Shown here: positions 1 through 56,189 of the stretch, in pieces
How positions within the stretch are numbered: position 1 is the first letter of the stretch
Layout: the number at the start of each line of letters is the position of its first letter
DNA from: Sphaerolaimus hirsutus
Taxonomy: Eukaryota; Nematoda; Chromadorea; Monhysterida; Sphaerolaimidae
DNA length: 64,000 nt
Reading direction: 5' to 3'
Assembly: GCA_964036195.1 (NCBI GenBank)
Contig: OZ038450.1
Location: forward strand, 24,829,208-24,893,207
Notes under the pieces: generated by a model
Database searches by the model: none
Told to the model about the DNA's origin: nothing
The model's input: only the letters and a program-made list of their open reading frames with translations
Made by a program: the position numbers and the translations under genes

Positions 1-303
1 TTCCGATGCTTTCCATTCACTTTTTCATTTTTTGTTAGCCACATCTTTTACACTAACAGGTGTCTATGATCATTTTGGCACTTCACAATTATTATACAAA
101 CTTTTTTTACATTGGTGTACATCAGGTGGGAACAGTCCAATAATACATTATCTATTTCTAATGTCTCCGTTATTGCACTAACACCATTCTGCCCATTCTT
201 TTAATTCTCAAGTACAATATTGTCATAAAGAAAAACGGAAGGACTACAGGAAAGCAGAGAAGGAACACCATCACTAAATTCCCCTGGCGTTAAACCAAAT
301 TTA
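1..303. other. left edge, no feature seen
   Basis: AT-rich non-coding DNA. I see no exon, RNA gene or repeat end in it. Confidence 0.5.
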
Positions 304-730
304 CCGTATTTCCTCGAAATACCCCCCCCCCCCGTTTGACCCCCACCCCTCTCGAGACCACTATGAAACAATCACCCCCCCCCCCTCGAAATACCCCCCC
401 CCCCCAGATTGAGTGTAAAGAGAACGTACATGACAAATACTGCAGTTTGTGTTCTGCGTAGTGCAGAACACACGTTAAAACAATGTCGGAAACACATTAG
501 AACAGTGTTTATACCATCTACGTACTAATATTAGTCTACAGGAGTCTATATTTACATGTCAGTTATTGATGCATTTTTCTACCCCAGCGCACATCACAAA
601 CAACGATTTTGTACTATGATTTCAAAAAATTTCTTGCGAAATAATCACCCCCCCCCTCGAAGTACCCCCCCCCCCTCTCGGGAGCACTATTAAACAATCA
701 CCCCATGGGGGGTATTTCGAGGAAATACGG
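304..730. mobile_element. TA-flanked MITE, CCGTATTTCCTCGAAATACC family
   Basis: Inverted ends CCGTATTTCCTCGAAATACC and its complement lie between TA dinucleotides at 302-303 and 731-732. Both arms repeat the word CTCGAAATACCCCCC several times. The centre carries a conserved core (for example ACGTACATGACAAATAC) that recurs in the copies at 38039, 42734 and 44964. No ORF. The TA target duplication fits Tc1/mariner-like or ISL2EU-like families; which one cannot be read from the sequence. Confidence 0.8.
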
Positions 731-916
731 TAGGCACTTTTCAGTAAACTTTTCTAAAACTTGTATAAAGCCCAGGCATAAGGCCCATTGGAGGACATTG
801 TGCATGTTAACTTTTGACAGCATGATAATACTGCTTGAAATGTATTGGCACACACAAAAAATGCGATACTAAAGCTGCCTCTCCCTCCAATTTATGACTG
901 ATCTGCACTCATCCAG

Positions 917-1075
917 GTGCCACTCCCAGACCCCGCAGAGTGTGAAAAGTCTTGTAAAATTTCAAATTTTATTTTATTTTGTTCACTTATTGTTTGACAT
1001 GACTTATTCTGACATTTTACATAATTTTTGACACTTTGCATAACATTTTACATTTTACAGAGTTTTGGAGTGCCC
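917..1075. mobile_element. short palindromic MITE, GTGCCACTCCCAGACCC ends
   Basis: The left end GTGCCACTCCCAGACCC faces the right end GTTTTGGAGTGCC. The interior is made of TGACATTTTACA-type words. Members of the same family lie at 7097, 15041, 19340, 22355, 24793, 29838, 35177 and 59165. Non-coding. Confidence 0.65.
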
Positions 1076-1618
1076 CCTGTCCAATAATATTTCTGCCGCA
1101 AATATTCACACCGTTTGTTTGGACACTTTAAAAAAAATTTGGCCAGGCGTGGTACGGCGACAAAATCATCATCGATACAACTGCAGCAGACAGCATCCGC
1201 CTTATTTCGACCAATCCCTTGCTTGGATTAACTTTCGTTCGAGTGGCCCACTCGCCCCGCGCCGTTTCCTTAGTTTTGATGTCACGGAAATCGATGTCTT
1301 TGTGCGTTGGTGTCTTGCGAACACGCGGCGCCAAATTTAAATTATTCCCTTTTGTTGGGTTGAATTTCTCGTTTGACCCATGCGTGTAGGATGGACTTAC
1401 CCTGCAGCCTCGATACGCTGCCAATCGTTCACATCAAAATGTTGCCTAACTAGTCAATTACACAAAGAGTAATGTTTTCTTCCACTATGAATTAAGATAC
1501 TCGTCGGCAGCGCACAACGACCTTTAGCCCAATTTGCACATCCCTAAGTCTCTTCTCACTTTCACTTTCATCCGTCATTCAAAAAAGGAAAAATTTCTCG
1601 GCGTCGCGACGAGGCGTC
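1076..1618. other. upstream region of the KNL2-like gene
   Basis: Open frames overlap on both strands at 1065-1424, but none has a recognisable domain or splice context. The region probably holds the promoter and 5' leader of the gene starting at 1619. No TATA box or initiator stands out. Confidence 0.4.
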
Positions 1619-1985
1619 ATGGACGATCCCGGCGCGGCGACGATGGAACTCGGCTATTGGTTTCCCGTATTCAATGGAGGAAAAGTGTCTCTGCGCGGGG
1701 TGCATTTTGCCGAGTACGTTACCTCAAAAACTCCCATTTCCGACCCACTTGGCACAGTGCCAACCAACACATTCCCCCTCATAGCGGCACCCTGCGCCCG
1801 GTGCACACCTCAGTCGTCCAGGAACGGCTGTCCGCGGTGCGGCTGCGAGTCGCCGACGGTGCCGAAGTGGTGTTGGCGGGCTCGCCGGTGCAGCGCGCCA
1901 TGCTGCAGAACGCGGTGCCCAAGGACGCCATTCAGGCGTTCGCGAATGGGTTTCCCAATGATTGGCAGAAATGGGCCGTGAAAAT
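1619..1985 (+). CDS. KNL2: exons 1-2 of the KNL2-like gene: SANTA domain
   Basis: Exon 1 (1619-1713) ends in phase 2 at a GTACGT donor. A 71-bp intron follows, and exon 2 starts after CCCCCTCATAG at 1785. Spliced, they give the SANTA pattern: an early Trp (ELGYWFPVF), a Val-Leu-Gly strand (GKVSLRGVHF), a basic strand (VVQERLSAVRLRV), a G-x-VxLxG turn (EVVLAGSP), and the hallmark C-terminal block FANGFPNDWQKW. The unspliced frame through the intron (GTVPTNTFPLI) has no such pattern, which supports the small intron. Exon 2 ends at AAAAT|GTGAGT in phase 2. Confidence 0.85.
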
Positions 1986-4900
1986 GTGAGTGTTTTTGAG
2001 TTTTGAAAGTGGGAGTTTCGGTTTTGCAGAAGGGGAAGGTGGAATCGACCTGTTTCGGTGGAATCGACCTGAATCGACCTGTTTGTTGCTCCCGCATATT
2101 TTCAGCTGTTTCTCTGTTTTCATAGGGTAATTACAAATGGACTGTCATATTTGTGTTCTAAATATAGAAACACTACTATTTTATATCCTGTCTCTACGTA
2201 CTATTCGAATTTCTTCCTTTCTGACTTATTTATTGTTATATATAATATCAGATATGGCATCGTTTTATAATTTTGCATGCCTTAGTCTTTATCAAATTTC
2301 CACAACATTCCAACATCCCTGCCACGCAACCGTCACATCTCCCACTGCAGACAACGTGCACATGACACGTTGGTCGCGCGGGGCGTCCATAACGACGTGC
2401 GCCGGTCACCCCGAGTGCTCGGCCACAAACAAGTCACCAGGGCGGGCCTGCCGCTGGGCAAGGTTCAGACGCCCGCCAGAGCTCGCCAGCCGCCGGCGCG
2501 GCCGCAGCTGCAACAGGAGCCTGGACCTGAGCTAGCTGAAGCAGTGCCGCAGGAGCGACCTGAACCAGTGCAGCGGCTGGGAGAAGAGTCTCAGTTACAG
2601 CGTGAGAAATCCGAACCAATGCCGCAGCCGCAAGCTGAGCCGCAGCTGGTGGAACAGCCCAGGTGTGCTGCTCTGTTGTTTTAATAAAGGATTTCCTGCC
2701 GTAGCGGATGTGGGGCTTCGCGTAGGTACATGGCTTGATAGGCCTTTCCAATTTTCAGTTGAATTAACCTGCGCGTGCATGTTTGGTTTTGGTTTACTCG
2801 ACGAAAATATCCTCTATTTCTATTCACGTTTGGGATGGGAAACAAATAATGAAAAATCAATTTTTCAAACCGTCATAATCACTTCCCATGACCCACCCCT
2901 ATTCCTCACGAACATTCACACACCTTTATAATCATTTATTTTGCCCAGATTGGAAAAAGAAAGTGGTGTCAGTGACGGGTCAGAGTCAAATCAAGCAAAA
3001 GCCGTCTGGGCAGCCCGGGCCCGCCTGTGCGACTACGACACGTCCGCCGACGCGTCCGGCCACGACGACAGCGGCCTGGCCGCGCCCCCGCCCGCCGCGG
3101 CGACAAATGTTGAGCGGTGGGTGTCCCTTGCGAATTTTGTTATGGTTCTGGTTTGGGGATTTCTGATTAAATTCATGTGCATTTGTAGTCTCGCACTGTG
3201 GATTTTGTTGAAGAAAAGCCGCATTTTGTGGCTCCACATTGATTGACTGCAGTAGAGATGGCAGTATAATGGCTAATGTTCGATTGAGTCTGCATTCTCG
3301 TCTAGGGTTCAAACGGGATCCCGATCCCGGATCCCGTGAAATTCCGGGATTTAGAAATCCCGATCCCGAAAATTTTCAAATCCCGATCCCGAGAAACTCC
3401 AAACTCCGGAATCCCGATCCCGGAAAAATTGGAGGATATTATCATAAGTGAAAAAAGGACGTTTTTGCATGCAAAAATGTGAACGCAAACCCCCAGCGTT
3501 CATTTTATGCCACTTTTCTGGCATCCAACAGTGTTTTGAGACCTTTATGAACAACTGTGAATGCCAGAACATTGGCCAAATACTCTATCCCAAGACCCCA
3601 ATCCCGATCCCGAAAAAATGCCGATCCCGATCCCGTGACCCCAATCCCGGCCAATCCCGATCCCGAAATCTCAAAAAACCAATCCCGATCCCGAAAAGTC
3701 AATCCCGTTTTAACCCTATTCTCGTCTATACTTTTCGCAAATCATTTCAAAGAAATCTCAATGACAAGAAAGAAATCACAATGACAAGAACGAAATCACA
3801 ATGACAAGAAAGAAATCACAATGACAAGAAAGAAATCACAAAAAAATCGTAAAAGCTCATTCTTAGAAAGTCGGTTTTGAAAAAAATAACAATCCACAAT
3901 CACAAATTCACAATCCTCTGAGCCCTATGCCAAGACGTGCCATGTGCTTCACATACTAATTACTAACCCATTCACAATCCACCTACAGGCGACCCGAGGT
4001 TCCCGATCTGCCCGACAACAAGTTGGTGTCCACCCTGCCGCCGAACAACGCCAGCGGCAGCGGCAGCGGCCCGTCGCTGTTCGGCGCGTCGCACCAGTCC
4101 TCCGTGTTCGCCGCGCCTTCAGTTGATAGGACCTGCGCGCCCAGTTTGGCGCCGAGTATGTTGCAGAATCGCAGTGGTGAGTTGAGGGGGGTCTTTGTGG
4201 GGTTTTGGGGTTTGTGGTGTTTGTTTGGGAGATAAATGACTAGGATGAGGGGAGATTGATGGAAATGTGGGCATTATTAGCGTGGCAAAAAGTGGTTAGG
4301 TACCGTTAAAACTAGGTGAGCGATGAAATTCACCTTTTAATCAATTCTAGCTCAACATGCGGAAAATACGCAATGAGGTATAAGAATTAGCGATTATAAA
4401 TGTAAAAAATGAACAGGAAGGTACGAAAATAGCAATTTTGGGTGAAAAATTGGTCAAAATCGTCACCAACCCCTTCTCAACCAAGATGGGGGTGGTTCAT
4501 GCCTACTATCCAGGAAGCTTTCTCCAAGACTCCACGCACAACTTGCCCTATCAACAGATGCAACGTGCGCGCGGCGGCGGGAGTACAGCAGTCGGCGCGT
4601 GTCCAGGTCGCCTTCAAAGTCGCCGCGTCGCCGGCGGCACGACGGCAGCCGTCGCTACGATTCAAGTTATAGCCGCGACGCAAGGCGAATGCCCACGGGG
4701 AGGAGTAAAGGATATGATAGCCCGCCCAGATATAGGTTGGGTTTTGTGCAGACTTCTGCTTATCGCCACGGATTAGGTCTAGCTTGATAAATGAAACCCC
4801 GAATATTCGAGAGAAAAAATACTCGGATTGCAAATGCATGCAATGCTACCCCGTTAGCTGTGGATGTCTATTTGACGTGTTACTTTTTGCATTTTTTCGC

Positions 4901-7900
4901 CCAGATGATTTTGTGTTAATGTCAGGGTGCGTCAGGTGCCAGTTCCGCAAGTGGCAAGTAAATTGGCAAAAGCGACGTAATCCTATTAAGTCGAGTAAAA
5001 ATACAAATGTGACATTTCGCGTCTCACTTCTCATTTTACTTTGCTTCTGCCAATTTACTCCGCTTTTGCCATTTTGCGCTTTCACTTCTCCACTTGCGGA
5101 ACTGGCAATTTGACTCAGCTGAGTAAAACCTTAAAAGCGCTCAAAAAGCGTGTGAAACCTCCAAAGCAGTCACGATTTGATTTTGATTGATCGGGTGCAC
5201 TATAATTCCCATTATGGGAGCTCTTATCCAAACTCGCTATACCGTATTTCCTCGAAATACCCCCAGGGGGTTTATTTTTTCAGAGTGGAAATTTTGAGAG
5301 AAAAACGTGAAAAATGCAACAATAACCACCATTTATAAGTTTTTCACAGCCTTATATAATGATGTAGATGTTATAAACGATGTTCTAACTAGGGTTCAAA
5401 CGGGACCGCGGTCCCGGTACATGGTTCGGCAAAAAGTCGGGACTGGGGCGGTCCCGGTCCCGACACCCCAGTCCCGGTCCCGGTCCCGACAATTGAAAAA
5501 AGCCAGTCCCGGTCCCGACCCCCCAGTCCCGGTCCCGGTCCCGACATTAGAAAATTTCTGGTCCCGGTCCCGGTCCCGGTCCGAAAAACTGGTCCCGTTT
5601 GAACCCTAGTTCAAACGTAACACAGTAAGTGTTTTGAACGTCTGTTATGCATTTCCCGGACCACAAATACATAGTGCCCATTTTGAGGGGGGGGGGGTAT
5701 TTCGAGGAAATACGGTAAATACCTTCATCTCAGGGGCAGCGACAGGACGCGTGGCAGCTCGGCCCCGCCCACTCCGATTGCCGTGCCGCCCGCCCGGCAC
5801 CAAAAGCCGTCTGACGTGTCGAGCAGAGGCTACAGTGTGCTGCCGCATGGTGGTGTGTTTGTGTTGTGGTGGTTTGAGGGGTTGTTGATTGGGTGAATGG
5901 TATGTGCATGCAGGGGTCAAAATCCCTGGTGACACGCAAAATGGTTACTTTGCCATCGGAATTGCTGAAAAATAATGGAAATAACCACTAATGTTTATAT
6001 GAAATGTAAATTTGCAAAATACGTGATGAATCAATACCGAAGATTTCAATGCCGTTTAAAAAAGCCATTCAAAAATCATATGTCAAGAAGAATTAAGAAT
6101 AAAAATGAATACAGTAAAGTCCCTATGTAAGTTAGGGTTGTAAAAAGAATGCTTTTTTGCCATTTGATTAAAAAAACAGTGTCCACGCTGTGATTTCAAA
6201 AAACCCCTATCTAATCCAATATTTACCAAAATACCATGTCCCTCGCAGACAAGCACAGCGGCAAGCGACCCAGATCCCCGTCTCGCTACGACAGGCGCGG
6301 CGACGATTATAGGCGTCGGCGGCGGCACGACGATTACAGACACCGCCGCGACGACTATTACTACGAGCGCGACAGACGCTACAGGCGCCGCCGCGGCGAA
6401 CACCGCCACCGCAGGTTAGGGATTGGGGTTGGGTCGATTTGAATGTTTGAGTGATTGATTTGGAAAGAATTTTGAAAAACGTTGAATTTTGTGAAGAAAT
6501 TTCAGATAAAGGGCAAGCTGGCCGGAGTTTTTAAACGTTTTTCCATGCCCACCGCCAACTAGGGAAGGGAAAATGTGTTTTCAACTGTCATTTTAGTTAA
6601 CAACGGTTTAAAAAGTTTTTTTATTAAAATGGAACTATTTTCGTTTCGATGCTTGCGTTTAAATTTTTTGAAAAACTTCGGCCATCCCTGGTGCCAACGT
6701 TATAAAACTATTGATTTCACCGAGCCCTGTGCAAAGATGCTTATTAGGCTGAATAGGTAAAAGCAGTGATACCACAGCAGAGAGCTTTTGAGAAGTTCGG
6801 ACAGCGAAATGCGGACCTTGCTTCCATAATTGTAACATTATACTCTTGTTTGTACCCTATATTTGTTCTACCCCAAAATTACCTCGTCCCTTTCCGCGCG
6901 CAGACGCTACCGCACCCCTTCGCCGTGTTCCACGTGCAGTTCGTGTTCGACGTGCTCGCCGCCGAGCAGCGCGTCGCCCAGCCGCAGTCCGTCGCCGAAG
7001 CGTCGCAGCCGCCCGACAAAGGGCAGGGAGCCGCGCGGTAACAATAGTGGCGTGTATCATTTGTCGGGTGAGTGTAGTGCGTTTTTGATTGATACAGGTG
7101 GCAATCCCAAGCCGTGTAAAGTGTCAAATGTAAAGTTAAATGCATAGTGAGACGTCAAATGTTAAGTCAAATGTCAATTGTCATGCAAAGTATCAAATGT
7201 AAACTAAAGTGTCAATTGTGTAATAAAAATAGTTTTTTTTTGTATCCAAATCGTATGGCGAAAATAAGATTTGCATGCAGAAACAGATTTGTATACGACA
7301 AAATATGATTTGGATACACAATTGACACTTTACTTTACATTTGACACTTTGGATGACAATTGACATTTAACTTTGCATTTACCTTTACATTTGACACCTT
7401 ACTTTACACTTTACAGGACTTGTGACCGCCACCAGTTCCCAATTCACATCTGCCTCTGTGCACTGAAACGTCCCAAAAACGATCCCTTCACTTCCCAGTG
7501 TCCCGCGTGGGCGGCAGCCGCAAACCAGACAAGCCGCGCGAGCGCAAACCTGGCACCAGCGGCGGCCGCCCCAATCGCAGCGGCGCGGCCAACGTCAGCG
7601 TCAAGAGACGCGGCGCGCGCGTGGCCGATAGCAGCGGCGCGTCGTCCGGCCGCCGCCGCCTGTCCGCCCTGTGCGAGGAGGGCCACGAGCCGGACGACGA
7701 GCTGCAGCTGCAGTCCGTCGTGGTGGATGACGTCGCTGCTGCTGTGGTTGAAGAAGTTCAGCCGGTGGTGGAGATGCCGCCCACGCCGCCGCCGCAGTCG
7801 CCGCCGCCGCCACCTAAGAAACGATGGAAGCCTAGGGAACTGGCTAAGTTGACAGTGTGAGTTTGGTGGTGATGCTGGTTGAGTAATATACGGCTGGGCG

Positions 7901-10900
7901 TAATAGTTGAGACTAGGGTTGGAAAAAAATCGATTTTTTTTAACGACCCCGATTTTTTAAAAAAAAAATCGATTTTTTTAAATAAAAATCGCTGGGGTCA
8001 AAATTAGCCCCATTTCTGCCTAAAATCGCCTCTGGGGGTAAAAAAAGCCATATAAATTGGTAGGGAGTGCACACTTATACTTTCTGTGCTAATATAAGTA
8101 CAGTAGAGCTTTGGAAAAGCTTGAAAGTCAGTTATTTTTAAGTGTAAATGTAATTAAATTGTTATATTTGTGACGTGAATCACACTTCATCGACAATTTG
8201 CAATTTTATTTGCAGAAATAGCATGTTCTTGCTCAGAACAAAATATAAATGATATTGGAAGTGAACATGGATGCATTTTGCATAAATGTTCGATGTGACA
8301 ACTAGGGTTGGCCGATGTTTTTTTTAAAACGTTTTTTTTAATAAAAAAAAACGTTTTTTTTTTAAAAAACATGACGTCCGATATGTTTTTTTAAAAAAAA
8401 AACATCGGCCGAAATTTTTAGTACTAAGCACTAGGTATTTTGCAAAATTTTTGCGCGCAAGCGCGCAATTTCACACACAAATTGACATTGGTGGTTGTTT
8501 TCATTGGTTTTGTTGCATTTTTAGTATCAAAACATCCATTTCTATGTGCTACCATGGGTGAATAAGCCGACATATGTTGCTGTAATATATAATATTGAGG
8601 TAATGTGCTTCCATGTACCTCCACAGTGTGTAACTTCACTCCCAAAGTAACAACCTCCTTTTATAACTTTGTTTGATCACCATTCCGTGCCAAACTTTAC
8701 CTGAAGTCACGAACATTCGACTATAAGGCGATATACGAACGATATGTTGACGAAAAATGGATATTTTTGACACAAATCACCACTTATAATGCTATCCCAT
8801 GGCTCCACAGCATATGGTCATATTTAACATCACAGAGTATTGCCAGTGTCTGATATACCTATATATGTTGACACTAGGTCATATCTGGGAGCTTTTAAAA
8901 AAAACGTTTTTTTTTATAAAAAAAACGTTTTTTTTTAAAAAACATCGAGTTAAAAAATACGTTTTTTTTCCAACCCTAGTGACAACACAAAGCATAACTA
9001 TGAATACTTCCTAAAATAATTCACAGCCTACCTTACACGCTTAAAAGCACACATAAATGGGTACTACACCCCCCAAATTGGTTGTCAAAGCCATGAAAAA
9101 AGCAACTTGTGGATTGTTTGCATGAAAGTGCGCGCTCGCGCGCAAAATTTTTGCATTTTACCTACTGCTTGAGTACCAAAATTTTTTGCCAGCGATTTTT
9201 TTTTTTTAAAATCGGTACGGGTGCTGCGATTTTTTTTTAAAAAAATCGGAAAAATTTTTTAACAAATCGCTTAAAAAAATCGCTTGCCAACCCTAGTTGA
9301 GACTAAGTTGGAAATTGATTGATAACATTTGGGGAATTGATAGATAACATTTGAAGCTGCGTTTGCAGCTCTACGGGTGAAATGCATAAAAAAAGGTCGC
9401 CGAAAAATTGCTCATTTTCTAATTTTAATGAAAACGTATGATGAAACATGGGCCGATGTAAAATGGCATTTGCGTTAACCAACGGAAAATGCATCAACGT
9501 CGGCTTTTTTCAGTCATACACTTTTCATTTAAACAAAACAAAAACATCTTCGAGTGATAAGTGACAGTAAAGTTCCCGTCACAACTTACCACTTTAAATA
9601 ACCACTTGACACTTTCTAACCCCCCTCAGCGCCCTTCGAGCCATCCTGCCTCAAGTTGACAATCCCGACGACTGGGACAAAGTGGCCAGATCCATCGCAC
9701 CCCGCTTCTCCGCCGACGATTGCAGACAGAAGGCGGAAGAAAGGGGGTATGATAGGGATAAGCTGATTGAAGCTGGTTGGTGCGCCCTTTTGGGGATGCT
9801 AGTTTTTTCAAATGTTTTTATTTTCAAAATTGATTTTTTTAAGTAAGTGATGAAATCGGGTTTTTAAAAATCAAATGCCGAAATTTTAGTACTGATTCGG
9901 TATCTGGTTCTTTACCTCACTTTTTGGTGTTTTTGAAAGAAAAAGTAATGAAATTTTTAAATGTAATTTTTATTTTCAAATGCCCTTTTCCATCCAAATC
10001 CCACGCCCGATAATTTTGCACTGAAAAATTGTCTTCTTCGGCTTATCACATGACATTCCGTTCACCGTAAATTTGGCCCATAATTTTTCACATTCAAAAA
10101 CATTGTAGAATCACATTCCCTATACACCATCCAACTATGGTGCCAACAAAAAATTTTTACGGAAAAATTTTTGCACTTGCCGGAAAACGGAAACGGAAAA
10201 TATTTTCACCTGCCGGAAAACGGGGACGGAAAAACTTTTGCCTGCGGAAAACGGAAACGGTACAAATTTGCCTGCGGAAACAGAATAAAATTTGGCACTT
10301 ACCACTGGTAAGTTACCAGGAAACGGAAAACGTTTTGCACTTGCCGGAAAATGGAACGGAAATGGAAAAAATTTCGTCTGCGGAAACGGAAAACGTAAGT
10401 TGACACCCCAATCCCCCCCCCCCCCCGCAGCCGACCAAACCGAACGTGATCGCCAATCGCAACAGCAAGAACAAGACCGGCGGAACGCGCAGGCGTGCGC
10501 GGCGATCCGCGCCCGGCCCGGCACGCAGTCCTACTTCATCGAGGCCATGTCCGTGCTGCAGTCGCGCGTCACCACCGGCGTCGGGTTGACCACCTTGTTG
10601 CTTGATGGCACGGCGGTTGGTTGCCGGGTTAGGATGTCAAACGGGATCGACTTTTTGGGATCTGGATTGGGGTTTTCAACATTTCGGGGCATCGGGATTG
10701 CGTTTTTCCGATTTTGAAATCGGGATAGAGGTTTCGGGGTCGGGTTCGGGACGACAAAATCGCGAAATTTGTCGGGATCGGGATCCCTTTTGGACCCTGG
10801 TTGTGGTGTGGGTGGGGGAGACTGATGTTCTGTTTAAGCAAACATTGATTAAAAACCCATTTGAGTTTACCATATGTATTTTCGTATCCCTGTCAGCGTT

Positions 10901-13900
10901 CTGGTAAACTCAATTGTGTTGGCAATCTGGTAAAACAGATTGGCCAGTATTGAAAATTTCAGTTATCAACTAATATTTATGTAGAGCAAATCTGGAGGAC
11001 ATGGGTTGATGCTATACATGTGTAGTAGTTGATTAACTTATTACTACACATGGAAACCCCTTTCCAACCATTTTTCATGTCGATAAATAAGGAAAAATAA
11101 AAAAATCATGATAAAGATAAATAGAAATTATTCATCGATGTTTGTGTCTCAGGCGCCAGAGGATAGCACCGTGGAAGATTCAAATTCGGCTGGCGGCGTA
11201 CGCCGAACCGGCATGTCATCGTCACTCGTACCGAATGTAAGTTTTGTGCCTCATTCGTTTCTGTTGTCGAGTTGCGTTTTTGTTAGTCTTGTCTTGTGTA
11301 CTCTTTTACGAAGAACTGAAGTGTCTTTTTACTCTAGTCTTTGTCTTGTTTGACGATTTTAACAAAGTGTATAAATAGCATTTCACACATCCCGGAAGAT
11401 TTTGTGAGATTTTGTGCGTGTGTGTTAAAATATTGCCTTGCAGAGATTTTGAAAATCAAAAAATATAAAGGGAACATTTTAAATTCGTTTACGTTTCTCC
11501 TTTAAACTCCTTCGTCGTTATATTTTATTTCTGAGATTATTTTCAACTATATTTTTAATTGCCAGTTTTTATAACGCAAGTACGAAACGTAATTCACGGC
11601 AATTCAGTGCCGTCGCGATCAGTTTCACACAAATCCCCTAATCAATTTACCCCCTTCTTTTTCTCACCCTTAGGCATCAGTTGAGCACGCATTGAACCGC
11701 CTCGACATGGACGCGTCGCTGAACTCACTTTTGGCCACGCCCACCGGCGAGGCGAATGAAGCGGCAGGTGCAGTCGCGCCGCGCCGACGGCCTGCATTTG
11801 CCGCTGCGCAGGTATGGCATTGGTGGCATTTTTCAGAATTTGAAATTTCTGACTCGACTCGGAAATTTCGGTGCATTTTTTGCTGAAAATCGTTGGGTTT
11901 TTTTTGAAGTTTATTTTCGTTTGCTCCGATTTTTGTTGACATTTGAGACTGCTAATGAATTGTCACTATACATGAGTCTCATCGGATCCTAAATTAAAGC
12001 TAAATGTACCATGAGTAATAAACGCGAAATTTACATGAATTTACATAAATATATCAATGTACAAATCACGGGACAATGTCCACCGTAGTCCGCGAGGAGT
12101 GTCGATGTATCGATCAGCCGGCGCGGTGTAGAAGCGTCAAAAGGAGAGCCATAATCAACTCTCGAAGATATCCCTTATGTGTGGGAATCGGCGCTATTCG
12201 ATGCGCGCATACACTGCCAAGCGCAGTGTTTAATTCGTTTGGCGATGAATCGCGAAATTACCTCGCGATGTTTGTGGCAGCGATTCTCTGCTGTGAGCCA
12301 ATGTAATTTGGCTATTGCCCCCGGTTTCGCCGAAAAATTACACCGGCATTTTGCACCCTGTTTCTCTGTTAGGGATTTTATTTCCGCCCTATGATGCAAG
12401 CAGGTGACCAGCACATGCATGGCTGTCAGTAACGCACCTCCTTGTGCTTTGTTGCAGTCCATGCATCGGACTCCGCTTGGTACTTTTATCATATTGTACC
12501 GCGCCTGCAGCCACCGTGCATGCACATTTCGATAATTTCTTAGTTGGAGGGTGTCATCAACATTCATTGTCCTCAGCGCCATGCTGTCTCTATTTTTCAG
12601 CGCGGCGTTTTGTCTTTCGACACATCGTAGTCGAATTAATTTGTTCATCCACCACTTTTTCATCGTTACCACGCTTGAAAATTCAATGCCGTAACTCTCG
12701 CCATAAATTTTGGCCCGGTCTGGGATACACGTTCCCATCAGATCTCTGCCGGCCATATTTACGCGCCTTGGCAGGTTTTCACTCATGAAAAGATAGGCAT
12801 CTTTTGTCAGCCCTTTTTCCAATTGATGTAAATAACCACAATACATCATTGTGTGTTTTTTAATTCTGTCGGAGGGCCGTGTCGAGCCCACATCGTGCCA
12901 GATCGCGTCACTGCACGTTGTTTTTTGCACGGACAAACTTATTTTGACCGCTTTTAGGGATGCCCTATCTATGGCCTCCAATTGAGGTTTCCTTATTCCC
13001 GTTACCTCCAATCCGAAGCTAACGGCGCTTTCGATGTACTGCTTCCAAACGAAATCCACGCACCAAAGTTTTGCGTCTGTCAATTGGGTGGATTTTAAAG
13101 CTAAAGCAGCCAATCTTTCTGCTTTTGCAACCGATTGTTTCCGGTGCTCTTCAAATGTGTCTCGGGCACTCGAGATAGTGACACCAAGATATTTTATGGT
13201 GTTTGTTTCAGAAATATACATGTCTTCTCTTTTGTGGGTTTTTCCCAAGCGCCACTTTTTGGCAGCTATTGCTTTTTGTCCCCATCTGAGCACGTAGCTT
13301 TTTGTCGCATTGATCGCGACATCCCAATTCCAACTCCATTTTGTGAATATGTCTAATATTCTCTGTAAATCTGCTTCCGTGTTGCTAAGGAAGCAGATGT
13401 CATCAGCAAAGAATAGTGCTGGCACTCTATGCACCCCAAATCGGGCCCCTACATCAGCCGCCTCTAGATGTAGGCGCAGATCGGCTAGGTAAATTATGAA
13501 GCCGGTGGGCGACCAGCAGCAACCCTGCCGCAACCCAATCGGGTAGTCCAATTTATCGCTTTCATAATCGCCAAATGTCATTACGCATTTTTGTTTGTCA
13601 TACGTATTTGCTATAGCTTGGACAAATTTCGAGGGGAAACCAAAGTGGCCCATTTTTGCCCACAGTTTTTTCCTGTTTACCCTGTCGAACGCCTTGACAG
13701 CATCCACGAAGCATGTTATCAGCTTCCCCTTGGATTTGTCGGCATGGCGTTTGCATGCTTGCATGACAACCAAGTTGTCCAATGTCCGGCGTTTGCCGCG
13801 AAAACCCCCTTGGATATCGCCAAACCCATTGTGCTTTTCAAACGCCGCCAATGTGCGTTTGTTGAGAATTGACATATACAATTTCACGATATTGCAGCCA

Positions 13901-15898
13901 ATCCCCAACGTGCGATAGTTGCGCACATCCATGGTACTCCCCTTCTTGTGTAGCAGCACCATTTTACAAACTTTTTTGTCTGTTTCGATCTGGCCACCAT
14001 TCAGCCATTCGTTGAAAATTCTCGCCATAGCGCACATGCGACTCGCATCTAAAATTTTCAAAACTTCATGTGAAATTGCTGTTGTGCCAGCAGATTTGTT
14101 ATTTTTGAACCGTTTTAATTCCGTCCGTATTTCGGTTTCGGTGATCGGCTCTAATAATTCCCGTTTTGTATTGTTTGATACAATATCTGCGCCAAACCAT
14201 GTGCGCGCGTCCATTGTGACCGCGCCCGGGTTTGGGGACATGACGATGTCCCATGCACTTTCTAATTCGCGCTTGATTTCATTTTCGGAGCAAATCAACC
14301 CGTGTTCATTTTCGAGTGCAAACCTTCGTTGTGAGGTGTCCTTCATACCATGCATGTGATGGTATAATCTCTTCACAGCTGTGCTGCAATTTTGACGAAG
14401 AGTTGTGATGAAATTAAGTTTTTTCCCTAAAAGTGCGTGCTGAATTAGCTGAAAAGTTTGATCAGAACTGACGTCACCCACGCTATGCATTGTCACGTAA
14501 AATGCCCTGTAGATCAATTTGTCAAGTTGTGCGGCATTTTGGTTTGGCGAGCTATGTTTAAATCTAATTAAAAAAATCGCAGTATCCAATCAGAGTTTTT
14601 TATATAATCCATTTTAAAAATAAAAAAATTCTTTTTTTTCTACCAGCCTTAGTAACATTCTAGAAACTGGACCCTTTAATCTCTTTATAATTACCATCCC
14701 TTTCCCACCCACAGACGCCGCAATCAAGTTCAGCCGACGACGAGCAAGCGGACGAGCGCGACGCCTTGGGCGATCTGGCCGCAAAAACTACTGAGGATGC
14801 GGCAGCTGCCAGGTGGGTACAGATTTAGGGTTCGCCCCAGGATCAGGGTTTAGGTAGGGCGCAGGGCGCCTGAAGTGCGAGTAGGGTTTAGGGCGCCTTT
14901 TTTTGATTGAATTTGACGCGATTTAGGAGAGTTGAGGAAGAGTGCTAAACAGCAACAACGGCCGACTTTTCGAGAATTTGGCATTTGATTTTTGACTTTT
15001 TAATTTTTGACCGGCACTGAGACCGAGACCACGGTATCTTGTGCCATTCCCAAGCCCTGTAAAATGTAAAATGTCATGCAAAGATTCGAAAGTCATGTAA
15101 AAAGTCAAATTTTATTCTTTTATTGGTCGTTTGACATTTTACACAGCTGTTGACACATTGCATGGCATTTTACATTTTACATGTCATTTTACAGTATCTA
15201 GGAGTGGCACCTCAAATATATCCCAACCCTACGCTTGTCACCTACCACGTGCTTCCCAATGGATGATTATACGAATAAAAAATTCGCAGACGCCGACAAC
15301 TCGCCTACGCGTGCAAATTGAGCCGCGAGCGGGCGGCCGGCCAGCGGGAACTGACGCGCGAGCACCGCCGCAGTCCGAGGCTGGCGGGCGGCAAGCAGAA
15401 CTCGTCGCTGCTGCACTCGGCCACCGGCAAGCAGCTCTTGTCCACGTTGAGGGTGAGTGGGAAGTTTGGTAGAGTGTAATCGCTGCAGTTGGCATATTAA
15501 AGTTGTCACTTCGCGTCTCTTATCACTTTTTTGTCACTTAGTCAACTTGTCGTGGGCCCTTTTGTGGTGCATGATTTGACCCTCCAATGGAGACGCCTGT
15601 CATCCCGAGCGCAGCGAGTATAGCGTTGTAGGTATAAGGAGTGCAAAATGTGCACTGCCATACGCGGGAATCGAACCCGCGCCTCCCGTGTACGCATGAG
15701 CACCCACCGCTGTATCACAGTGCCGCACGTTATTCGTTTTTTATTCCTTCGCAGGACGACACGCAACGCAGTCGGATGGCTCAATTGGACGAGAACGATC
15801 GCGCTGACAACGACAATGACAATGACGATGATGTCGACGACGACACTGGCGACCAACTAGAGGAAGTTGTCGGCGACGCGGCATTCAAGTGGGATTAG
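1619..15898 (+). CDS. KNL2: KNL2/MIS18BP1-like centromere protein (SANTA + SANT/Myb), 17 exons
   Basis: Members of this family bind centromeric chromatin and help load the histone CENP-A. Exons by splice sites and phase: 1619-1713, 1785-1985, 2351-2662, 2949-3116, 3989-4176, 4558-4735, 5734-5849, 6249-6414, 6904-7037, 7499-7856, 9630-9775, 10431-10627, 11153-11236, 11674-11811, 14715-14812, 15290-15452, 15755-15898. All phases agree, and the spliced frame has about 961 codons without a stop. Order of parts: SANTA (residues about 12-98), Q/P/E-rich linker, an Arg/Ser/Asp/Tyr-rich region (about 322-519), a proline run, a Myb/SANT domain (about 626-676), and an acidic C-terminus rich in DND repeats. 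The ATG at 1619 is chosen because SANTA begins just after it; an upstream exon cannot be excluded. The 3' border of exon 12 is the least certain. Third codon positions are GC-rich, unlike the introns. The family call is mine from domain pattern, not from a search. Confidence 0.8.
2351..4176 (+). CDS. KNL2: exons 3-5 of the KNL2-like gene: disordered linker
   Basis: Exon 3 (2351-2662) encodes a basic stretch (VRRSPRVLGHKQ) followed by a Pro/Gln/Glu-rich run. Exon 4 (2949-3116) is Ser/Asp-rich and ends in an Ala-Pro run. Exon 5 (3989-4176) has a Gly-Ser run (NASGSGSGPS). All three look disordered and are held together by GT/AG sites and matching phases (2, 2, 2, then 1). RRSPR vaguely recalls the start of a CENP-C-type motif, but the aromatic residues of that motif are missing, so I do not call one. 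Confidence 0.75.
3303..3718. mobile_element. hAT-like element filled with CCCGAT words
   Basis: The ends TAGGGTTCAAACGGGA and TCCCGTTTTAACCCTA are flanked by a perfect 8-bp target duplication, TTCTCGTC (3295-3302 and 3719-3726). The interior is largely iterated CCCGATCCCGA. The terminal pentamer fits the hAT rule YARNG. It lies in the intron between exons 4 and 5. Confidence 0.85.
3749..3840. repeat. 20-bp tandem repeat
   Basis: Four near-identical copies of ATGACAAGAAAGAAATCACA run from 3761 to 3840, with a degenerate copy in front. Intronic. Confidence 0.85.
4558..7037 (+). CDS. KNL2: exons 6-9 of the KNL2-like gene: RS/RD/RY-rich region
   Basis: Four small exons (4558-4735, 5734-5849, 6249-6414, 6904-7037) encode about 200 residues dominated by Arg with Ser, Asp and Tyr. 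Visible pieces are RVSRSPSKSPRRRRHDG, RRYDSSYSRDARR, DDYRRRRRHDDYRHRRDD and SPSRSPSPKRRSR. Exon 9 also has a Cys/Ser run (CSTCSSCSTCS). Such composition is typical of SR-type splicing factors and of phase-separating nuclear proteins. I know of no comparable block as a standard part of KNL2/MIS18BP1. The run of phase-compatible junctions on both sides argues that it belongs to this gene. Confidence 0.75.
4936..5107. mobile_element. palindromic MITE-like element, GTGCCAGTTCCGCAAGTGG
   Basis: The left end GCCAGTTCCGCAAGTGG is mirrored by CCACTTGCGGAACTGGC at the right. The interior has paired words such as TTTTGCCAATTTAC. A diverged relative ends near 62520 (CCACTTGCGGAATTG). It sits in the intron between exons 6 and 7. 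Confidence 0.65.
5242..5715. mobile_element. TA-flanked MITE ending 18 bp before exon 7
   Basis: CCGTATTTCCTCGAAATACC ends lie between TA pairs at 5240-5241 and 5716-5717. It contains a younger hAT-like insertion (5390-5608). Its right end lies only 18 bp upstream of exon 7, so the pyrimidine tract of that acceptor is squeezed between the transposon and the exon. Confidence 0.85.
5390..5608. mobile_element. hAT-like element filled with GGTCCC words, nested
   Basis: The ends TAGGGTTCAAACGGGA and TCCCGTTTGAACCCTA have flanking octamers GTTCTAAC and GTTCAAAC (7 of 8 match). The interior is iterated GGTCCCGGTCCC. It has the same ends as 3303-3718 but a different word, so the word array evolves faster than the ends. 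Confidence 0.8.
7097..7433. mobile_element. palindromic MITE of the GTGCC group
   Basis: The left end GGTGGCAATCCCAAG is mirrored loosely by ACTTGTGACCGCCACC. The interior consists of TTTACATTTGACAC words in opposite orientations on the two arms. It ends 65 bp before exon 10. Confidence 0.6.
7499..9775 (+). CDS. KNL2: exons 10-11 of the KNL2-like gene: SANT/Myb domain
   Basis: Exon 10 (7499-7856) encodes an RGG-like basic stretch, an acidic/valine stretch, a proline run (PPTPPPQSPPPPPKKRW) and the first Myb helix. Exon 11 (9630-9775) carries the second and third helices. Myb landmarks are the Trp in KKRWKPRELAKL (about residue 629), the Trp in NPDDWDKVARSI (about 654), and the helix-3 block SADDCRQKAEE. 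A charged tail follows (DRDKLIEA). The domain is split by an intron that holds two nested hAT-like elements. Exon 11 probably ends at AGCTG|GTTGGT in phase 1; the earlier GGGG|GTATGA donor would put a stop into exon 12. Confidence 0.85.
7914..9295. mobile_element. hAT-like element, TAGGGTTGG ends, AAAAATCG words
   Basis: TAGGGTTGG and CCAACCCTA ends have a perfect 8-bp target duplication GTTGAGAC (7906-7913 and 9296-9303). The arms are rich in AAAAAATCGATTTTTT. No transposase ORF. It carries a younger, related insertion at 8303-8978, and it splits the intron inside the Myb domain of the KNL2-like gene. Confidence 0.9.
8303..8978. mobile_element. nested hAT-like element, AAAAACGTTTTTT words
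   Basis: TAGGGTTGG and CCAACCCTA ends have a perfect 8-bp target duplication GTGACAAC (8295-8302 and 8979-8986). Its arms carry AAAACGTTTTTTTT in place of the AAATCG of the host element. One member of the family has jumped into another. Confidence 0.9.
10138..10413. mobile_element. degenerate element of CGGAAAACGGAAACGG words
   Basis: It is built from CTTGCCGGAAAACGGAAACGG words and bounded by TATGGTGCCAAC and GTTGACACCCCA, which are degenerate versions of the TAGGGTGTCAAC ends of the intact element at 39358. No clean target duplication. It abuts the C-rich acceptor tract of exon 12. Confidence 0.6.
10431..10627 (+). CDS. KNL2: exon 12 of the KNL2-like gene (3' border uncertain)
   Basis: The acceptor is the run of C ending in GCAG at 10430. 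In phase 1 the frame is strongly GC3-rich and encodes a Gln/Arg-rich helix, then PGTQSYFIEAMSVLQSRV. The next exon starts in phase 0, so the donor must be phase 0: CGG|GTTAGG at 10628, GCG|GTTGGT at 10616, or the weaker GGC|GTCGGG at 10580. The first lies at the edge of a transposon. Confidence 0.6.
10630..10799. mobile_element. degenerate hAT-like element of GGGATCGGGAT words
   Basis: The left end TAGGATGTCAAACGGGATC and right end GATCCCTTTTGGACCCTG are decayed TAGGGTTCAAACGGGA ends. The interior is GGGATCGGG-rich. No clear target duplication. Its first bases overlap one candidate splice donor of exon 12 (GT at 10628). Confidence 0.6.
11153..15898 (+). CDS. KNL2: exons 13-17 of the KNL2-like gene: C-terminal region
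   Basis: Exon 13 (11153-11236), exon 14 (11674-11811), exon 15 (14715-14812), exon 16 (15290-15452) and exon 17 (15755-15898) join in phases 0, 0, 2 and 0. They encode a Ser/Glu segment, an Ala-rich segment, a basic coiled segment (KLSRERAAGQRELTREHRR), a Ser/Leu segment and a final acidic tail rich in Asp/Asn ending AFKWD. The stop is TAG at 15896. A possible poly(A) signal AATAAA lies 440 bp downstream at 16338. Confidence 0.7.
12175..14589 (-). mobile_element. LINE-type reverse transcriptase ORF, 5'-truncated copy, antisense in intron 14
   Basis: An 804-codon frame without a stop encodes a non-LTR retrotransposon reverse transcriptase. Landmarks by residue: a fingers motif RNYRTLGIGCNIVKL (about 223-237), GGFRGKRRTLDNLVV (261-275), motif A FVDAVKAFD (about 294-302, catalytic Asp), motif B GLRQGCCWSP (352-361), motif C FADD (394-397), the LINE block KYLGV (466-470), and a C-terminal CX2CX12HX4C zinc knuckle (Cys709, Cys712, His725, Cys730). 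No apurinic endonuclease domain precedes it. On the coding strand a TGA lies directly before the first codon (TTG), and the first ATG is at codon 34, so the copy is probably 5'-truncated. No poly(A) tail or target duplication is visible. It lies antisense in the intron between exons 14 and 15 of the KNL2-like gene. The clade is not settled. Confidence 0.85.
15041..15210. mobile_element. palindromic MITE, GTGCCATTCCCAAGCCCTG ends
   Basis: The left end GTGCCATTCCCAAGCCCTG is mirrored by the right end TCTAGGAGTGGCAC. TAAAATGTCATGCAAAG words occur on both arms. It ends 79 bp before exon 16. Confidence 0.75.
15652..15723 (-). repeat. tRNA-derived block (probable SINE head)
   Basis: On the minus strand there is an A-box-like TGATACAGCGGTGGG and a perfect B-box region GCGGGTTCGATTCCCGC forming a T arm. 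The acceptor stem does not close in the right register, so it is not a functional tRNA. It continues into ACATTTTGCAC, as does the tRNA-like block at 20481. It lies in the last intron of the KNL2-like gene, antisense. Confidence 0.6.
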
Positions 15899-16634
15899 CG
15901 CCGCGCGGCAAATTGCAGCGCTGCAGTTGAGAGTGGATATGTTGAAGTGGTTTGGTTGCGCGACCGGCGGCACTTGGTGCTAGGGTTCGGTGGCTAATGG
16001 GCATTTTTGCGCCGATTTTCGCTTAAAGTTAGAAATCTCCGGTGTGGGTGTAGAATGCGACTTTCGACTTTAGAATGACTTAAATATATTCATATTCTCT
16101 CTGAAAAAATATGAAAACTGTTTTGTGTGTGACAGTTATTTACACACATCGCCCCAACCCTGCCATGTTCTCGCTGGTGTGCTGCTATTACAACCAATTG
16201 CTTATTTGTCACATGTCAATTAAATTTGTTACATTGTCAATTACATTTGTTAAACTGTCAATTTCAATTCTTACAACCGTATCAATGAGAATTACTGAAA
16301 ATATATAAATATAGTGCGTTTTTGGTGTCTGTTCCGTAATAAATTGCCGCGCAAGAATTTTCCGCCGGGGTTGCTTTATTTGTTTATTTTGAACGTGGGA
16401 AAAACCAAAAACGTAATTTTGGGTATTCACTCTATCGGGTGTGGCCGATTTCACTGTAAAGTGTGCGGTCGATCGTTTTTCACAATGTTAAATAGGTTAA
16501 AACTCTTCTTTGAGTAACTTGGGTTCTTACAAATTATGGAACAGGCTACGGAGGTTTTGCAGCCGATTTGTCGTATTTTTTTACAAACTTCCAATTTACA
16601 TGTTATCATTGCTACACAAATTTTGCTCCTGGTA
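15899..16634 (+). other. 3' flank of the KNL2-like gene
   Basis: Non-coding. A canonical AATAAA at 16338-16343 is the best poly(A) signal candidate. No other exon is seen. Confidence 0.4.
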
Positions 16635-18849: not shown

Positions 18850-21800
18850 TCATCTAATGCACAACAAGCACAAAATCACGAGCGAGTGATAAAAGGGCAC
18901 ATGATACTGATACTGTCTGGGCGCGGCGTTGGCATGCTGCCAAGTGCGGGAGTCTGCCTGCCCCGCCCCCTTGGTGTGCTCCGAGAGCACGTAGGGGTCG
19001 TAGGTGATCGGCTCCCTCTGGTTTGATTCCGTCTCTTGCCATGAGATGCGGGTGGGCGGAGCCTGTGAGATAAATATTTACTGCATTTTCTCGGGATAAC
19101 CGCATTGAATTAACCCCAGTTGAAATTTACTGGCGAAATGATACGGCCCTTATGGATTGGATTAACGGTGATTAGCCTTGGGGTACGACATTTTGTCATA
19201 TTATGGGGGCAGCAGTCCCACACCCCAAAAATGGCATGTATTTACGAGTCGCAAAAAAAATCGTAAGCAAAACAGCGAAATTTCAATGGACATTTATGAC
19301 ATTTCCTACTGCGCGTAAATCACCATTCCAAATTGGTGCTACTCACAAACCCTGAAAGATGTAATTTATATGTCAAATGCCCTGTAACATTTTAAATGTC
19401 ATGTAAAATTTCAAATTCTTGTTACTGCCCATTTTACAATTTCATAACATCTTATATTTACTTTCCATGACATTTGCCATCTTGCATGATTTTTGACATT
19501 TCACAGGCTTTTGACACTTTCCATGACATTCCACAATCTCTCTTAGCCCCCCAAACCCACCTCCACCCTCACCCTCTCAGTAACCCCCTGGTCCCCCTCC
19601 CAATTCTCGCCCTGCAAGCTGAGCTTGGCTCCAAACGGGCAGGAGGGCATGACGGTTTGGGTGGTGTCCCTGAGCACCCGGTGGATGACCCGCCACGAAC
19701 TGTCGCCGCAGTGTTGCCGGATGGGCTGGCGAACGCAGGAGGCGAAGAAGTTTAGGGCGCTGGGTTTTTTTTTTGGGGGGGGGTGGTTTTAGTAGTGGTG
19801 GAAAAAGCGCCAGGACTTTGGCGCTAAGTGCCATGGCGCTTTTCCGACCCCAGCGCCAATGGCGCCAGAGCGAAATGGCGCTTTTTGCTTTGACGCTAGC
19901 GCCAAGCGTTTTGTTCCCGCCGACAGGCAAAAATAGTGCAAAGCGCCATGGCGCTTTTCTGAACCCTAGCGCCACAGCAATATAGTGCAAAAACGACATG
20001 GCGCTTTTTGCTTTGGTGCTAGGGTCAGGCGCCAGCGCCATCGCAGTTTTCAATCACTACTTTAGGGTTGTTTTTGGTAGAGTGGATGTGCAATCATCTC
20101 ACTTGCTACTGTTCAATATTTGACCGGAGATGGTCATTTTATTCTTAAATCTAAAATGGATATTCAAGGAACACACGGGTCCAAAAAGCTTATTAAAAAT
20201 AATCGAAAAGAATTTTCAGAATATTCCTGTAGTGAAACAGTATAATAAAAATACGTTTCACACTGATCCGATACTTCCAAAAGGTATTCATACAGGCGAG
20301 AACAGTTACTTTTTGAGGAAACAAACGTATACCGTATTTATTCTAATAGAATAGCGCCGTTCTATTTTTTTCGTCAACTTTTTTACCTGCTGTTCTATTG
20401 GAGGTATGCCCTTATGTTACAAGAAATACGGTAGTCGGGAGACCCGTTTTTACCAGCCATTGTGCCAGGTGCAAAATGTGTCGCCTGGCCGGGAATCGAA
20501 CCCGGGACCTTTCACCAAGCATGTGAACGCTCAACCGACTGGGCTACCAGGAGTTGACACTTATGTTCAAATGATAACTATTCCAGCCCACCTGCACATT
20601 TTAGCCATTTTGGCCTGGAACTGCATCTGGGGCATCTGGTTCAGTCTATGAATGACGGCCATGGTCTCGTCGTGGCAACTTTTCGCCTCCGGCCGCTGGT
20701 CCAAGTCCATCAGGCAGTCGGCGTTCGAGTAGAACGCTGCGGGGTCGATTTCGGTTAGTGTGATTTGTAATGGACTACGCACACCAGTTTTCTACCGGAA
20801 TTTCCGATTAAAATTGGAAATCGGCTTTTGACGCATTTGAGTTTACCGAAATGCGGTCCGTCGGAAATTAAGTGTGCGTAACACAATATTATGTATACCT
20901 ACATTTTTGTGTGCTTGAATTTGTTGCAAAGTTGATTAGCCTGTCCTTTTTGGTCAGGCTCGTCGAAATAGTGTTGGGCTAGCCAAATGAAACTCCAATT
21001 ATAGTGGGCAAATCCTATTTACCGGATTTCCTCGAAATACCCCCAGGGGGTTTATTTTTTCAGAGTGGGAAATTTAAACGGGGGGGGGGGTATTATTTTG
21101 CCAGAAATTTTTGGAAATGCAACAATATGCACCATGTTTAATGTATAAACATTGTTTTAACGTAACAAATTTATTGTTTTTAACGTGTGTTCTGCATTGC
21201 TCGGATCACAGACCGCGGCTTTTGTTATTTACGTTCTCTTTAAACTCAGTTTTTTTTTTTTGGGGGGGGGGTTATAAATTAATAGTGTCCATTTTGAGGG
21301 GGGGGGGTGGGTTATAAATTAATAGTGTCCATTCTGAGGGGGGGTATTTCGAGGATATACCGTATATCAATCCCCAAGCACACCCCCCTCCCCCGACCGA
21401 CTTTGGTAGCCCTGGTTGCACAGGTATCCGTAGGAGGCGTTCATGAGCTGCAGCGTCATGTGGCCGGGGCAGCGGCTGCGCGCCTCAGACACGCACACGT
21501 CGAAACGGCGGATTAGACTGAGTGGGGGGGGGGATGATTTTGGGGGGACGTGCCATTGTATTTTCATCGAATGAAGGGTCACTAACTCTAGTGGGGGGTA
21601 GGGTAACGATGGCGAACAAATATTCGAAAACGTTTTTAAATTATCGGATTTTTTGGAATTTTTTTCATCTTTTAGCTATTCCAAAATGCATAAATATAAA
21701 GAATTCGAAAAATAAATTAAAAAATCCCGAAAAATATTGTAAATAAAAATATCCCGTGCAATTTCACGCTTTCTACAACACCCCAACTTGAAGAACCTCA

Positions 21801-22670: not shown

Positions 22671-23040
22671 CTGCGTTCGTTCTTGCAATTGGGAGTGACC
22701 ACTGTACACTGCACTGCACTGAGGTGAATTTAGTTTCGGTTTGAGATGCATTTTTAGGTAGACTGATCAATTGATTACAGGTCCAACTAGCAGTTCATGT
22801 TTGACACATTTGGCGGTGGGGATGCGATAAATCCCCTTTCGTAAACGTAAAGTATTTATTTTTTTACTCACCCCCTGAGTACAGAAACGTAAAAGTATTT
22901 TTTTTTACTTTTACTCATGAGTAAACGTACTTTTCCCATGGAAAACGTAAATGTGAGTATTTTTGAGAAAAGCCACCCCAATTTTCGCTCAGAGCCACTA
23001 ATTTTTATAACTTTTTGCCCATTTTAAGCGCTTTTGGCTA

Positions 23041-50398: not shown

Positions 50399-51172
50399 GG
50401 GCTCAGCGAAGACACTGTTAATCAATGTGAGCGTCACAAAAAGTACAAATACAGTACTTTTTGTTGCCATGGCTGCCATTTTGCTGAAGTTACGAAGCTT
50501 TCTTATCAGAATACCGTATTCCTTCTAATAGAAAAGCGCCGTTCTATTTTTTGTCGACTTTTTTCCTGCCGTCCAAATAGAGGTGATGTAAGAACGATAA
50601 AACGAATATTGAATAAAATAACGGGGCCAGGCAATGTATTTTGTGTGATTTTATGTAGGTATTTACCTTTACCAAACTGAACCAGCATTGTAATGTCAGC
50701 TTTTCATCCAGGTTTATAAAAGCTGATGATAAATGCATGGCGTAGTGGTTCAACTAATGAAGAATGAATTACATTACAACAGTATTACAGGTGGCAGGTA
50801 TGGAATGAATAACTTATATTTATTGTTGTTGTAACAATTACCATTCGTATTTCCTTGAATAACGCCAGGCCAGTAAAGCACTGTAGGTAAAGTGTAAAGT
50901 CAAGTGTCAAATGTCATGCCAAATGTCGAAAGGAAGGGAGGCACAGGTAGGTTGTATTTATTTAAAAAGGTCTCCCGGAATCTAATTCACTCTAAAAACA
51001 CTTTACTATACCATATTAGATCACATGAATATCTCAGTTATTTATCACACACACATCAAGGTTTTACCTAAGATACTCGGATGACATTACGCCGTACATT
51101 TTCCCGGCGAAAACACTCCATCATGACGTGATCACTTTCGTTGTCTTCGTCATCTCTCGCCATCACGTCGTC
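50399..51172. other. spacer after the duplicated segment
   Basis: It includes the end of duplication copy 2 with a decayed MITE of the GTTCTATT family (50513-50600). No gene seen. Confidence 0.4.
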
Positions 51173-51180
51173 GTCATCAC

Positions 51181-53057: not shown

Positions 53058-53065
53058 GTCATCAC

Positions 53066-56165: not shown

Positions 56166-56189
56166 TTGACACTACATTACCATAAACCT

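Follow-up and report, generated by a model that had tools for sequence, protein, structure and literature searches.

The 17-exon gene on the plus strand of the window (the 64,000-nucleotide stretch of DNA analysed here) looks, from its predicted protein, like a KNL-2 (M18BP1-type) gene, and no second SANTA gene was found in the genome. KNL-2 is a known protein with a part in marking the sites at which chromosomes attach during cell division. The long linker between its SANTA and SANT-like domains contains a block rich in arginine. This Arg-rich block is real, and its likeliest reading is a disordered linker that is basic and perhaps tunable by phosphorylation. The locus is best described as an ordinary gene with an unusual linker, and the claim of a novel functional insert was only partly supported.

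Gene model, family assignment and surroundings

The exon chain was predicted from the DNA sequence and spans positions 1619-15898 of the window (+), on contig C1 of an assembly with 762 contigs and 348 Mb; it encodes about 945 amino acids. The 17 exons originally claimed were recovered as a chain in which all chosen introns have GT-AG borders and 15 of the 16 exon junctions were in frame as first read. The exception was the junction of exon 12 with exon 13. Five phase-compatible GT donors were found for exon 12 (10553, 10568, 10580, 10616 and 10628), and the 945-residue version of the protein uses donor 10580, chosen among the five without further evidence. Apart from this junction the predicted model holds. 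Its features are as follows.

1619..1713, +: exon 1, start of KNL-2 (aa 1-32) and first part of SANTA (spliced model, Pfam)
1785..1985, +: exon 2, remainder of SANTA (domain at aa 13-94; Pfam E 4.2e-12, genome search 43.4 bits)
2351..2662, +: exon 3, linker, Q/P/E-rich (spliced model)
2949..3116, +: exon 4, linker (spliced model)
3989..4176, +: exon 5, linker (spliced model)
4558..4735, +: exon 6, Arg/Ser-rich (aa 322-381), with three 20-residue windows at 70% S+R (composition)
5734..5849, +: exon 7, Ser/Pro/Arg (aa 381-420; composition)
6249..6414, +: exon 8, Arg/Asp/Tyr mixed-charge stretch (aa 420-475; 23 R, 9 D and 7 Y in 56 residues)
6904..7037, +: exon 9, Ser/Pro/Arg-rich (aa 475-520; composition)
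7499..7856, +: exon 10, end of linker and start of the SANT-like domain, from about 7816 (model, phmmer)
9630..9775, +: exon 11, bulk of the SANT-like domain, to about 9744 (phmmer to 1wgx, E 0.015; AlphaFold2)
10431..10579, +: exon 12, 3' end uncertain (spliced model with donor 10580)
11153..11236, +: exon 13 (spliced model)
11674..11811, +: exon 14 (spliced model)
14715..14812, +: exon 15 (spliced model)
15290..15452, +: exon 16 (spliced model)
15755..15898, +: exon 17, acidic C-terminus and stop (spliced model)

HMMER matched SANTA (PF09133) at aa 13-94, in exons 1-2 as predicted (E 4.2e-12, 46.8 bits against a Pfam cut-off of 21), and a SANTA profile search of the 348-Mb genome gave one match at E ≤ 0.001, in exon 2 (43.4 bits). 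A single SANTA gene is reported for most metazoans in the available text of PMC9210943. When the SANTA region was compared with 177,635 PDB sequences by phmmer, the best match was a Mis18-binding protein 1 fusion (9r6h), at a weak E of 0.0078. The same kind of search with the region around Trp629 gave 1wgx as the best match (also weak, E 0.015), an entry labelled KIAA1903 that we take to be the human M18BP1 SANT; 9f5w, a Mis18-binding protein 1 construct, was third of five matches to this region (E 0.36) over the same aligned residues. Because M18BP1 tops both PDB searches, and does so in the right order along the gene, the KNL-2/M18BP1 assignment is convincing. The isolated SANT region matched nothing in Pfam, even with E relaxed to 10, and a DUF4778 match overlapping the SANT-like region (E 0.0038) was below its Pfam cut-off. 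A single-sequence AlphaFold2 model of exon 11 contained helices at residues 2-8, 12-22, 28-38 and 42-46 with low confidence (mean pLDDT 68.4, pTM 0.38). The original prediction of a KNL2/MIS18BP1-type gene was thus borne out by SANTA and the two PDB searches, qualified by the weak SANT score. Its pairing of SANTA with SANT/Myb in one protein stands firmly for SANTA; SANT was supported weakly by 1wgx, and the Pfam test for Myb/SANT was negative. SANTA comes first, close to the N-terminus, and about 530 residues of linker separate it from the SANT-like domain.

An ABC-ATPase gene (+), presumably ABCE1, lies upstream of KNL-2 at about -13400 to -7978 in window coordinates (ABC_tran 7.9e-7 on one exon, Pfam). 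Between it and position 1619 no further KNL-2 exons were evident in 20 kb of upstream sequence, with frames filtered by length and GC, a procedure that may miss short exons. A vertebrate-type N-terminal Mis18-binding region is therefore probably absent. The upstream region also carries a Thr/Ser-rich, mucin-like tandem-repeat frame of 422 residues (-3734 to -2469, -).

Several features within and beyond the introns were noted. Intron 14 holds an uninterrupted 804-residue frame antisense to the gene (12178-14589, -) with an RVT_1 match (8.3e-27, Pfam), by its look a non-LTR-type retrotransposon. By eye, related short-period repeats with GATCCC or GGTCCC units that end in 'caaacggga'-like sequence occur in introns 4, 6 and 12 (3300-3720, 5400-5610 and 10640-10800). 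Part of intron 16 (about 15640-15730) resembles the T-arm side of a tRNA, 'gaatcgaacccgcgcc'; it was not called by Rfam or ARAGORN and is perhaps a tRNA-derived SINE. A tRNA-Ser (GCT) gene is present at 20480-20553 (-). A DASH_Dad1 match (5.1e-7, below cut-off) of a 264-residue frame at 56151-56942 (+) was dismissed as spurious, since most of the frame is a translated 30-bp minisatellite of 17.4 copies. Pfam searches on nine of 12 frames from two GC-rich stretches (all six of 50900-53500 and the three plus frames of 19400-23000) led nowhere.

The Arg-rich block

The block consists of exons 6-9 (4558-7037, 594 coding nucleotides) and encodes 198 residues, aa 322-519, in agreement with the roughly 200 residues over four exons that had been placed between the two domains. 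It is 27% R, 18% S and 7% Y, and with 60 K/R against 20 D/E its net charge is +40. Elsewhere the net charge is -1 (exons 3-5), +5 (exon 10 linker), -1 (SANT) and -12 (C-terminus). Exons 3-5 and 10 have a GC of 0.66-0.70, similar to the block, but R contents of 8% (exons 3-5) and 12% (exon 10 linker), so GC alone is insufficient to account for the block. Disorder of the linker was judged from composition.

Composition is patchy, with Arg/Ser in exon 6, Ser/Pro/Arg in exons 7 and 9 and Arg/Asp/Tyr in exon 8. R+S exceeds 40% over at least 259 residues (aa 337-595, the longest length tested), and three of 926 20-residue windows, in the exon 6 core, reach exactly 70% S+R. RS/SR dipeptides number 13 in the block against 18.8 in residue shuffles, 1943 of 2000 of which reach 13. 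The 'RS' label given to the block therefore fits the exon 6 core and does not fit the mixed-charge exon 8 or the dipeptide count, which is not enriched. Six of the seven S/T-P-x-K/R CDK-type sites in the whole protein fall in the block, against a mean of 1.5 in composition-matched shuffles (0.16% of 5000 shuffles reach six, a post hoc and uncorrected comparison). Outside the block there is one such site, with 0.99 expected from shuffles. The patterns used to look for a CENP-C motif matched neither the protein nor any of the three plus-strand frames of 1-16500.

The block runs from phase 1 to phase 1, as do its halves, exons 6-7 (294 nt) and 8-9 (300 nt). Because of this phase symmetry the block or either half could be skipped in frame. 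Neither the phase symmetry nor the cluster of CDK-type sites had been part of the original observation. Tandem duplication of exons 6-7 into 8-9 was not supported, since the phases match but the alignment scores do not beat shuffles (local alignments as high in 115 of 1000 shuffles for exon 6 against exon 8, and in 832 of 1000 for exon 7 against exon 9). Derivation from another gene was likewise not supported: at E ≤ 0.001 the genome matched the block only in its own four exons, in a search that scored nine candidates and in which low-complexity handling may hide others.

CENP-A loading partners and a possible function of the block

No Mis18 was recognised in the genome among the six of 17 Yippee-Mis18 model candidates (maximum E 10) that were read, in a six-frame exon-wise search of a kind that can miss Mis18-type genes. 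The two significant matches were rejected as Mis18, their sequences being Yippee-like, and presumably represent Yippee-like proteins. Four of the fifteen weaker candidates were also rejected, with nothing Mis18-like on reading. One weaker candidate (L010) is, we assume, a CULT/cereblon piece, and another (L013) presumably holds a carboxylesterase-like piece. The CENP-C cupin model gave no genome matches, in a weak test whose control responded below the cut-off in 4 of 14 named genomes.

The H3-core model gave 30 genome matches, and four regions with divergent copies were inspected. Two near-identical divergent H3 genes, at C1:15700029-15701802 and C2:22584232-22584936, consist of two pieces each and have a loop 1 two residues longer than that of canonical H3; they are possibly a centromeric H3 pair. 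A third divergent copy (C15:8768103-8769244) has a Trp in loop 1, and a fourth (C637:1786-2043) shows 55% identity and has a basic tail that continues its reading frame. These two are candidates for CENP-A or other variants. For the joined exon pieces of the C1/C2 and C15 genes, ordinary H3 was best among the 60 best of 174 and 173 PDB matches.

The reading that we tentatively favour is a Mis18-independent KNL-2 with a disordered basic chromatin tether tuned by CDK/RS phosphorylation. By analogy with C. elegans, KNL-2 would recruit or maintain CENP-A without Mis18 proteins, and the disordered, strongly basic block would tether it onto chromatin, either to DNA or to the nucleosome acidic patch. 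Mitotic phosphorylation of the CDK-type sites and of the RS dipeptides would lower the net charge, and the lower charge may weaken the hold on chromatin so that binding would follow the cell cycle. The block, being basic, probably contributes to keeping KNL-2 on chromatin, because the central part of C. elegans KNL-2 contacts CENP-A (PMC8259991) and mammals are described, in the text available, as having a CENP-C-binding domain between SANTA and SANT (PMC9210943). A precedent for control by phosphorylation comes from Xenopus M18BP1-L, which according to the accessible part of PMC13021935 carries a metaphase phosphorylation on S760. This residue lies close to a conserved arginine that anchors the protein to the acidic patch, and the phospho-mimic S760D shows no binding to CENP-A nucleosomes in vitro.

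In favour of this reading we counted SANTA itself and its single genome match, M18BP1 as the best match in both PDB searches, the nematode markers, the absence of a recognised Mis18 among the six candidates read, the net charge of +40 against that of the flanks and the cluster of CDK-type sites (post hoc). Counted against it were the Xenopus mutants, in which nucleosome binding survives mutation of the Cdk1 consensus sites (PMC13021935, in part), and the C-terminal position of the CDK sites studied in C. elegans KNL-2 (T750, S772 and S784), of which S772/S784 serve condensation and not CENP-A loading (PMC8714079, in part). The missing CENP-C motif, the CENP-C cupin model without matches (a weak test), CENP-A candidates that stayed uncertain and the SANT without a Pfam match also weighed against it. 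Nearly as likely as a basic tether is a neutral disordered spacer whose composition has drifted and whose basic clusters are at most nuclear localisation signals. Such a spacer is consistent with the C. elegans central region, which lacks an annotated domain in the available text of PMC8259991, with the absence of block-like sequence elsewhere in the genome at E ≤ 0.001 (nine candidates scored) and with an internal exon-pair duplication not supported by alignment against shuffles. It does not readily explain the sharp local charge contrast, or CDK-type sites in excess of shuffles (post hoc).

An unlikely alternative in our judgement is a genuine SR-like or Arg-mixed-charge domain, through which KNL-2 would enter nuclear speckles or other RNA-rich condensates, or would bind centromeric RNA. 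The accessible part of PMC9479744 defines an SR protein by an RRM together with an RS domain of at least 50 residues, more than 40% R+S and RS/SR dipeptide repeats; it counts a protein as SR-related by composition if a 20-residue window has 70% S+R, with at least 20% of each. The likeness lies in R+S above 40% over more than 50 residues (at least 259 here) and in the borderline core of three of 926 windows at 70%, and the R/D-rich exon 8 resembles domains that accumulate in speckles (PMC9324279, in part). The dipeptides, however, are fewer than the shuffled mean, the context is SANTA/SANT, and no Pfam family reached its cut-off in the block and hence no RRM was found there; the sole Pfam listing was SR-25, at E 1.5 and with a score of 8.8 bits where its cut-off is 40. 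Furthermore, K/R are three times D/E, and added basic residues are reported to promote apparent nucleolar accumulation in the text available of PMC9324279. Since no RRM was found, this is not an SR protein under the definition in PMC9479744, and it is at most borderline SR-related by that paper's composition rule.

We consider it very unlikely that exons 6-9, or some of them, come from a separate transcript or one that is alternatively spliced. The phase symmetry of the block and of the pairs 6-7 and 8-9 would keep the frame on skipping, and the reading frame of exon 8 has an ATG at 6236. Against this, junctions 5-6 to 9-10, five in all, are in frame with GT-AG borders, and GC and GC3 of exons 6-9 fall among the values of the remaining exons, with GC at most slightly above them. 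Equally improbable to us is a bolder scheme, in which an alternatively includable, phase-symmetric Arg-rich cassette, gained in this lineage, took the place of the CENP-C motif and the Mis18 route and acts as an electrostatic clamp on CENP-A chromatin under CDK/SR-kinase control, exon skipping and phosphorylation setting how and when centromeres load. A variable chromatin-binding linker is more likely than a new kind of machine.

Comparison with known systems

The four-unit TTAGGC pattern gave 17,386 overlapping exact matches in the genome (11,965 + 5,421), the listed places being internal to contigs, and four units of TTAGGG and five of TTAGG gave no exact match there. (TTAGGC)n is the telomere repeat of C. 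elegans in the source text available. Col_cuticle_N (PF01484) gave 56 genome matches at E ≤ 0.001, all above cut-off. We take PF01484 to be the nematode cuticle collagen domain. The repeats and the collagen matches therefore point to a nematode, and C. elegans KNL-2 is the comparison to make.

Vertebrate M18BP1 provides the best PDB sequence match for both domains of the gene described here. It differs in having an N-terminal region, for which the present model, starting SANTA at aa 13, has no room. The mammalian protein is without CENPC-k in the text available of PMC9210943, and a CENP-C motif was likewise not found here; the motif is a feature of many KNL2/M18BP1 members and is not required.

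This case concerns one gene in one species. It has SANTA in common with C. elegans KNL-2, together with a middle that lacks annotated domains and is probably mostly unstructured; the SANT/Myb domain of the C. elegans protein has a weakly supported counterpart here, and no Mis18 was recognised among the six candidates read. The lengths are about 945 residues here and 877 in C. elegans. The central region of C. elegans KNL-2 lies between SANTA and Myb. Its residues 269-470 have no annotated domain, are predicted to be mostly unstructured and bind the N-terminal tail of CENP-A by yeast two-hybrid and in vitro, according to the accessible part of PMC8259991, and according to that of PMC8714079 no further member of the Mis18 complex is recognisable in C. 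elegans. The available text of both papers makes no mention of an Arg/Ser-rich linker, which is present here, and the CDK sites studied in C. elegans are C-terminal, whereas six of seven CDK-type sites here are in the linker. No mention of an Arg- or Ser-rich KNL2/M18BP1 linker was found in the literature searched, of which coverage was partial and which included few subscription papers. The suggestion that the block is not a known standard part of the family thus survives for its composition and not for the architecture, given the mostly unstructured middle of KNL-2 already described in the accessible text of PMC8259991. The effects suggested originally, on chromatin or RNA binding or on condensates, stay inferential. 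The C. elegans central region is a CENP-A contact, and a linker of quite different composition in another nematode would help to show whether sequence, charge or phospho-sites matter.
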